In this document: positions 1,641-1,870 of the stretch, one piece after another
Layout: the number at the start of each line of letters is the position of its first letter
Position numbering within the stretch: the first letter of the stretch is position 1
Assembly: GCA_946478765.1 (NCBI GenBank)
Contig: CAMLDH010000064.1
Coordinates: 1 to 15,572 of the forward strand
Source: an uncultured Oxalobacteraceae bacterium
GTDB taxonomy: Bacteria; Pseudomonadota; Gammaproteobacteria; Burkholderiales; Burkholderiaceae
Reading direction: 5' to 3'
DNA: 15,572 nucleotides
Made by a program: the position numbers and the translations under genes
Notes under the pieces: generated by a model
Told to the model about the DNA's origin: nothing
Database searches by the model: none
The model's input: the letters and a program-made list of their open reading frames with translations, nothing else

Positions 1641-1700
1641 CCTCGTGCACCATTGCAACAAAAACCCATCCAATCAATCACTTGCAGAGAAATCAGCATG

Positions 1701-1737
1701 GTTATCAACAGGCTTAACCACAATTATTGTGGGTAAC
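1701..1737. promoter_or_regulatory. DnaA-box module 1 (three boxes in 37 bp)
   Basis: The module contains TTATCAACA (1702-1710, plus), TTAACCACA (1714-1722, plus) and TGTGGGTAA (1728-1736, which is TTACCCACA on the minus strand). Each differs by one base from the DnaA box TTATCCACA. Spacers are 3 and 5 bp; the second and third boxes face each other around TTATT-type DNA. The 37-bp unit matches module 2 at 29 of 37 positions with the same order, orientation and spacing. Confidence 0.6.
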
Positions 1738-1804
1738 TTTTGATATTTGTCAGCAGTGTTATGGATTGTGTCCTATTTTGTGCCATCGGAATAAATATTC
1801 AACG

Positions 1805-1817
1805 GATCAACGGGTTA
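1805..1817 (+). promoter_or_regulatory. Candidate IHF binding site between the DnaA-box modules
   Basis: GATCAACGGGTTA matches the IHF core WATCAANNNNTTR at all specified positions except the first. The AT-rich AATAAATATT lies directly 5', as is common at IHF sites. It ends 16 bases before module 2. A single 13-bp match is weak alone; the position beside DnaA boxes is what makes it notable. Confidence 0.4.
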
Positions 1818-1833
1818 CAGAGTAATCAACCCG

Positions 1834-1870
1834 GTTATCCACAAGCTTGCCCACAATTGCTGTGAATAAC
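1834..1870. promoter_or_regulatory. DnaA-box module 2 (three boxes in 37 bp)
   Basis: The module contains the exact consensus TTATCCACA (1835-1843, plus), TTGCCCACA (1847-1855, plus, two changes) and TGTGAATAA (1861-1869, TTATTCACA on the minus strand, matching TTATNCACA). Order, orientation and spacing equal those of module 1, 133 bp upstream. Both modules lie in the 439-bp gap between the ends of two convergent genes, so control of a flanking promoter is unlikely. No dnaA, dnaN, gyrB or plasmid rep gene is in the window. Confidence 0.7.

Follow-up and report, generated by a model that had tools for sequence, protein, structure and literature searches.

Known DnaA-Control Loci of Escherichia coli

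The closest described systems to the locus analyzed here are the DARS of Escherichia coli. The ColE1 origin is where the first DARS was identified (PMC5835720); DARS1 and DARS2 share an equal spacing of their DnaA boxes, with box I in the opposed orientation (PMC5742627), and boxes I and II, which stand head-to-head, are essential (PMC10380432). DARS2 requires both IHF and Fis (PMC8682772), and its core is conserved among the γ-proteobacteria related to E. coli (PMC4245941; PMC8682772). Another control locus is datA, the IHF complex of which drives the hydrolysis of DnaA-bound ATP (PMC5742627), and the DARS loci and datA are also counted as titration loci (PMC12371093).

For sequence comparison we used the core of DARS1 from the bioD–uvrB interval, which reads TAATACACA tgg TTATCCACA ggaat AGTGGATAA on the reverse strand, and that of DARS2 from the rppH–ygdT interval upstream of mutH, which reads TTCTTCACA act CTATCCACA gaaaa GGTGAATAA. 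The identity of the latter was checked against the published primer for deleting boxes I–III of DARS2 (PMC4585315), which stops one base before the core.

Two DARS-Like Cores in Tandem

The window, namely the whole stretch of 15,572 nucleotides that was analyzed (contig CAMLDH010000064.1 of the uncultured Oxalobacteraceae assembly GCA_946478765.1), is Oxalobacteraceae-like as judged from its prfC product, which shares 92% identity with the Noviherbaspirillum malthae protein and 85–90% with those in Herminiimonas, Undibacterium, Massilia and Janthinobacterium records. It contains two DARS-like three-box cores, both on the plus strand. Module 1 (1702–1736) consists of box III (1702–1710, +), box II (1714–1722, +) and box I (1728–1736, −) and reads TTATCAACA ggc TTAACCACA attat TGTGGGTAA; module 2 (1835–1869) consists of box III (1835–1843, +), box II (1847–1855, +) and box I (1861–1869, −) and reads TTATCCACA agc TTGCCCACA attgc TGTGAATAA. 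A preliminary description of this DNA had claimed two direct boxes and one opposed box with equal spacing, and this arrangement is present in both modules, with gaps of 3 and 5 bp. The exact boxes that it named are found as well (TTATCCACA at 1835 and TTATTCACA at 1861 on the minus strand), and its figure of 29 identical positions out of 37 is obtained when each core is extended by one base per side, the cores proper being identical at 27 of 35 positions.

Compared with the consensus TTWTNCACA, the boxes are of moderate quality: every box of module 1 has one mismatch, and boxes III, II and I of module 2 have zero, two and zero mismatches, respectively. A box II of the form TTRNCCACA is found also in genomes G069, G008, G305, G320, G255 and G278, a recurrence that speaks against mere decay of this box. 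Box-like 9-mers per se are not enriched in the window (8 counted vs. 7.8 expected). The three-box arrangement, unlike such single words, is far beyond chance: modules with up to three mismatches occur twice in the 15.6 kb of the window and are absent from 8.8 Mb of random sequence generated by a first-order Markov model with the window's composition. When gap pairs of 0–15 by 0–15 bp were scanned in the window, only the 3/5 combination returned two modules, with 4/4 and 1/7 returning one each.

Box orientations and the 3/5 gaps are identical between the window modules and E. coli DARS1, with which modules 1 and 2 share 24 and 22 of 35 positions; the core geometry of DARS2 is likewise identical, with 20 and 22 shared positions. 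Both E. coli loci have a single core, unlike the tandem pair of the window.

An IHF Site at Equal Offset from Each Core

The IHF consensus that we applied, WATCAANNNNTTR, was taken from PMC4585315. It recovers the 12 of 13 match previously noted before module 2, namely GATCAACGGGTTA at 1805–1817 (+), together with a second match that had been overlooked, AATCAATCACTTG at 1672–1684 (+), which agrees at 13 of 13 positions and lies at the equal offset before module 1. The distance to the module that follows is 17 bp in both cases. The window holds two composite units of 65 bp on the plus strand, at 1672–1736 and 1805–1869, in which an IHF site and a 17-bp spacer are followed by boxes III, II and I in this order. 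The original observation is confirmed, and is stronger than first stated. IHF-like 13-mers are common in the window (25 with at most one mismatch, of which 3 are perfect), and the unusual feature is not these words alone but the equal offset of the IHF site from both cores.

The IHF-like sites nearest the DARS2 core also lie on the side of box III, but at a different distance, namely 58 and 74 bp vs. 17 bp in the window. DARS1 has no IHF match with up to two mismatches in the 70 bp upstream of its box III.

Gene Context and the Same Locus in Relatives

The paired modules are intergenic, lying between a gene for a 96-aa product on the plus strand (1200–1490) and a gene for an 83-aa product on the minus strand (1930–2181), neither of which has a Pfam match. 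The convergent flanks reported earlier are as described, the first ORF ending at 1490 and the second having its low end at 1930; relatives of these two genes are also convergent and adjacent in genome G071. There is no dnaA among the scanned window proteins, no Rep family among the 13 scanned window proteins or pieces (Pfam), and no iteron-like repeat family in positions 1480–2200. Upstream of the modules, between 288 and 700, the window carries a tRNA-Ser(GGA) and then an ORF remnant resembling the start of an integrase. This stretch has stops in all three plus-strand frames, and the integrase label is a reading only, because the piece gave no match when tried against Pfam.

The 83-aa gene served as synteny marker and has a match in 203 of 392 family genomes. 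(As queries on genome contigs, the endonuclease gave no relative and prfC gave relatives.) Among 30 fetched loci with the 83-aa gene, each of 1.8–3.3 kb and some ending close to the gene, modules are found in one (L152, genome G069) and in none of the other 29, synteny being shown for few of them. The pair of G069 is accompanied, in window order, by the 83-aa gene, the endonuclease gene, prfC, the 177-aa ORF, the rhodanese gene and glnA; this region yielded neither the 96-aa gene nor the glycosidase genes, and no tRNA was found in 20 kb of it. Its cores are identical to those of the window at 27 and 32 of 35 positions, and both of its IHF sites, matching at 12 and 13 of 13 positions, have the offset seen in the window. 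The module starts are 106 bp apart in G069 vs. 133 bp in the window, the intervening DNA differing in length. Part of the gene order is kept in two further genomes, G149 (83-aa gene, endonuclease and two glycosidase genes) and G071 (96-aa, 83-aa, endonuclease, prfC, 177-aa, rhodanese and glnA genes), and their 20-kb stretches are without modules. Thus, one relative has kept the paired locus, and others are without it. The conservation in relatives by which the preliminary description had proposed to judge the pair is borne out by the syntenic pair of G069 but not by the 29 loci without it. (Within the 83-aa family, some matches contain a single in-frame stop, among them those in G125, G138, G192 and G221, and G201 has three that score equally.)

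Core Geometry in the Family and the Class

A search with fixed geometry gave 69 matches, spread over all 11 relatives searched, and none in the reversed control. With both gaps left free at 0–12 bp, 76 matches were obtained in 51 of 195 family genomes, again with none in the reversed control; the first gap is 3 bp in all 76, and the second is 5 bp in 71 and 4 bp in 5. Recomputed on the 45 distinct copies in 30 of these loci, the second gap is 5 bp in 41 and 4 bp in 4. As far as these copies tell, the core geometry is fixed in the family. Across the class, the bare core geometry occurs in 128 of 185 genomes with up to two mismatches (reversed control, 0), counts over related genomes such as these being non-independent and no significance tests.

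The matches in relatives sit at hemE–priA, at xseA–exbB, near a UvrD-type helicase gene and elsewhere, all these genes having been named from translated ORFs that were then used as tblastn queries. Sixty labelled loci, several of which overlap, comprise 31 with hemE and priA, 2 with one of these genes, 7 with xseA and exbB, 5 with a UvrD-like gene and 15 others, and their gene contexts are variously convergent, divergent and co-directional. The modules at hemE–priA and near UvrD-type helicase genes, hereafter called class 2, have the core geometry of the window, but their listed copies are without IHF match at −30 and their conserved flanks differ. In the hemE–priA intergenic regions (e.g., L122, L209 and L213), class 2 modules number one to three and their flanks are conserved; several of these loci have their last core ending approximately 72 bp ahead of where the priA match begins.

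Tandem arrays of six or seven modules, 118–196 bp apart, are seen in the xseA–exbB interval (L141:1501–2458, L127:1351–2196 and L125:771–1698); middles resembling TTGCGCACA are frequent in their boxes III and I. Genomes G305 and G320 have composites upstream of minC, a gene name read from translated ORFs, and G255 has four modules in an array, with a further core that lacks the IHF site 1.8 kb away. In the G255 array (L283:7221–7886), box II is TTGTTAACA in three of the four members and a perfect IHF match lies at −30 in each. Around prfC, 80 loci covering 1.40 Mb contain 5 modules with up to four mismatches; one of these, a core of the same geometry with three mismatches in Novimethylophilus kurashikiensis (L029:9280–9314), lies approximately 0.7 kb before prfC.

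Linkage of IHF Sites to the Core

Composites with the spacer free at 0–30 were found in 289 of 383 family genomes, and none in the reversed control. The same search in the class returned 3 of 185 genomes, G008 among them, and all four places at which these composites lie are spaced as in the window. This difference between family and class indicates that the fused form belongs for the most part to this family. In the 30 composite loci examined for the spacer, its length in pattern numbering, which equals the true spacer plus one, is 17 in 11 cases, 18 in 37 and 22 in 1, the last being a case without good third box.

Of 206 distinct modules, a set that includes loci chosen for IHF, 75 have a plus-strand IHF match (one mismatch at most) that begins at −30; in 21 it begins at −29, and in 8 elsewhere upstream. 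In the 116 modules of loci that were not chosen for IHF, which include the two of the window and the two of G069 and exclude L251–L286 and the E. coli loci, the corresponding counts are 17, 7 and 3, so that 92 modules are without IHF site at −30 or −29; this set also has 12 upstream matches on the minus strand, of which 8 lie at −50 to −52, as well as 6 downstream. (Both sets consist of distinct modules with up to five mismatches, those near locus ends being excluded). Within the xseA–exbB arrays, an IHF site accompanies four of seven modules in L141, five of seven in L125 and six of six in L127.

Chromosomal Position and Relation to the Origin

Among the composites listed on the dnaA contig, those of 12 genomes lie at approximately 26–31% of the genome from dnaA, with genome sizes rounded to 0.1 Mb and closed circular contigs assumed for G240 and G337. 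The sample comprised 20 genomes, of which G035 had its listed composite off the dnaA contig and 7 had none listed. In E. coli, DARS2 and DARS1 lie at approximately 21% and 33% of the genome from oriC.

The hemE–priA modules lie approximately 18–107 kb from dnaA in seven genomes, with G167 and G178 measured across the contig end and the value for G167 rough. In G178, a single contig of 3,424,307 bp of which 674,307 bases were sampled, the cumulative GC skew has its minimum near 3.37–3.38 Mb. This minimum is approximately 35 kb from the hemE–priA modules, which are thus probably not the origin there, and the candidacy of hemE–priA as origin is unsupported in this genome. At the skew minimum itself (L243:4451–5867, approximately 3,374,451–3,375,867 of G178), six TTATCCACA boxes in near mirror symmetry flank an ORF resembling MTA nucleosidase, a candidate two-sided origin approximately 50 kb from dnaA. 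Its box layout differs from that of the modules, except for one weak overlapping copy of the DARS geometry with three mismatches.

An origin at dnaA was considered and set aside: in 11 dnaA loci of relatives, 2.5–3.5 kb each, no module was found at up to four mismatches, and strict boxes number one or two. A second ORF with a Bac_DnaA domain, of 230–280 aa, appears in 8 of the 11 relatives, with dnaA alone in G005, G006 and G007. This size is close to that of Hda, and the second ORF would fit, if weakly, a DnaA–ATP cycle that needs recharging.

Functional Interpretation

The region is probably, by analogy with E. coli, a paired DARS-like locus for the control of DnaA, in which tandem cores fused to IHF sites would reactivate the protein. 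The suggestion of a betaproteobacterial locus of DARS type agrees with the E. coli DARS geometry of the cores, the IHF site on the side of box III, the recurrence of the modules and the absence of dnaA among the scanned proteins. Geometry, IHF offset, recurrence in the family and synteny in one relative are seen directly in the sequences; binding of DnaA and IHF, head-to-head exchange and a role in timing are predicted from E. coli. By that analogy, ADP-DnaA remaining after replication would bind the facing boxes II and I, where head-to-head contact would loosen ADP; the apo-DnaA would then leave and take up ATP, restoring initiation-competent ATP-DnaA. DnaA on box III would stabilize the complex, IHF beside this box would bend the DNA and gate the reaction, and two tandem units would provide more capacity. 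The loss of ADP by head-to-head contact, the aid of box III and the bending by IHF are all taken from E. coli (PMC10380432; PMC8682772). The element looks built to work like a DARS.

Several findings speak against this reading. Box II, which is essential in E. coli, has one and two mismatches in modules 1 and 2; the IHF distance is 17 bp vs. 58 and 74 bp at DARS2; the pair is missing from 29 of the 30 fetched loci that carry the 83-aa gene; 92 of 116 modules are without IHF site at the offset and arrays do not always keep it; and one weak copy of the geometry, with three mismatches, falls in the candidate origin of G178.

The six boxes could instead form a titration site that holds DnaA without nucleotide exchange, its occupancy being modulated by IHF. 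Clusters of boxes should indeed bind DnaA, the E. coli loci are counted among titration loci (PMC12371093), and arrays of six or seven modules would suit such a role. Titration, however, requires neither the fixed 3/5 spacing nor the opposed box I nor the IHF offset, and yet these are kept, which leaves this explanation unlikely.

We consider it improbable that the locus is an inactivator of the datA type, promoting IHF-dependent hydrolysis of DnaA-bound ATP. DnaA boxes with IHF nearby are a feature that the window shares with datA (PMC5742627), but E. coli datA has no 9-3-9-5-9 module at up to five mismatches and its IHF lies between the boxes, whereas that of the window lies outside a core of DARS type. 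In anatomy, the earlier proposal of a control locus resembling DARS or datA stands for its DARS half and not for its datA half.

Descent from the origin of a plasmid or integrated element, also raised in the preliminary description, is very improbable. The discovery of the first DARS in the ColE1 origin (PMC5835720) would favor it, as would a core of window geometry in the repB region of an Acinetobacter plasmid (L180:1204–1238) and the upstream tRNA-Ser with its integrase-like remnant, a piece without Pfam match. However, the ColE1 core adjoins a replication gene, and that of Acinetobacter adjoins both a replication gene and repeated iteron-like words, unlike the pair in the window, with no Rep family in its scanned proteins and no iteron-like repeats in 1480–2200. 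The pair is also kept in G069, with no tRNA in 20 kb, and related composites lie in the xseA–exbB interval and upstream of minC (as read from ORFs). No match was found in 50,697 phage records, and the only plasmids that match are 27 Acinetobacter records, over about 50 bp.

There is similarly very little probability that the modules are an array bound by some other protein, or the site of a transcription regulator, and merely resemble DnaA boxes: boxes III and I of the family arrays often have non-consensus middles such as TTGCGCACA or TTGTTAACA, and TTGTTAACA stands at box II in three of the four members of the G255 array, but the composites have TTATCCACA as their box II consensus, the 76 copies in 195 genomes have three consensus-type boxes (24 of the 30 loci fetched for such copies containing hemE and/or priA), and the gene contexts differ.

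Significance of the IHF-Fused Form

DARS-like sequences in many proteobacteria are already reported in a 2023 review (PMC10380432), and the spread of the core is therefore not new in kind. Titles and abstract openings of the open-licence literature yielded no report of the IHF-fused form, and the literature found there on DnaA reactivation is, by title, almost all on E. coli. It is quite possible, although we would stop short of calling it probable, that the family has built a one-piece, IHF-gated switch of approximately 65 bp for reactivating DnaA, in which the number of units would tune ATP-DnaA and the separate long IHF–Fis arm of DARS2 would be dispensed with; under the same tentative reading, the switch would have arisen when an IHF site became fixed at a constant distance from a DARS core. 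A compact element of DARS geometry with built-in IHF would give a minimal and testable switch outside enterics, and arrays with as many as six or seven cores would supply natural variants in copy number. By analogy with E. coli, this DARS-like design may help to time the copying of the chromosome.
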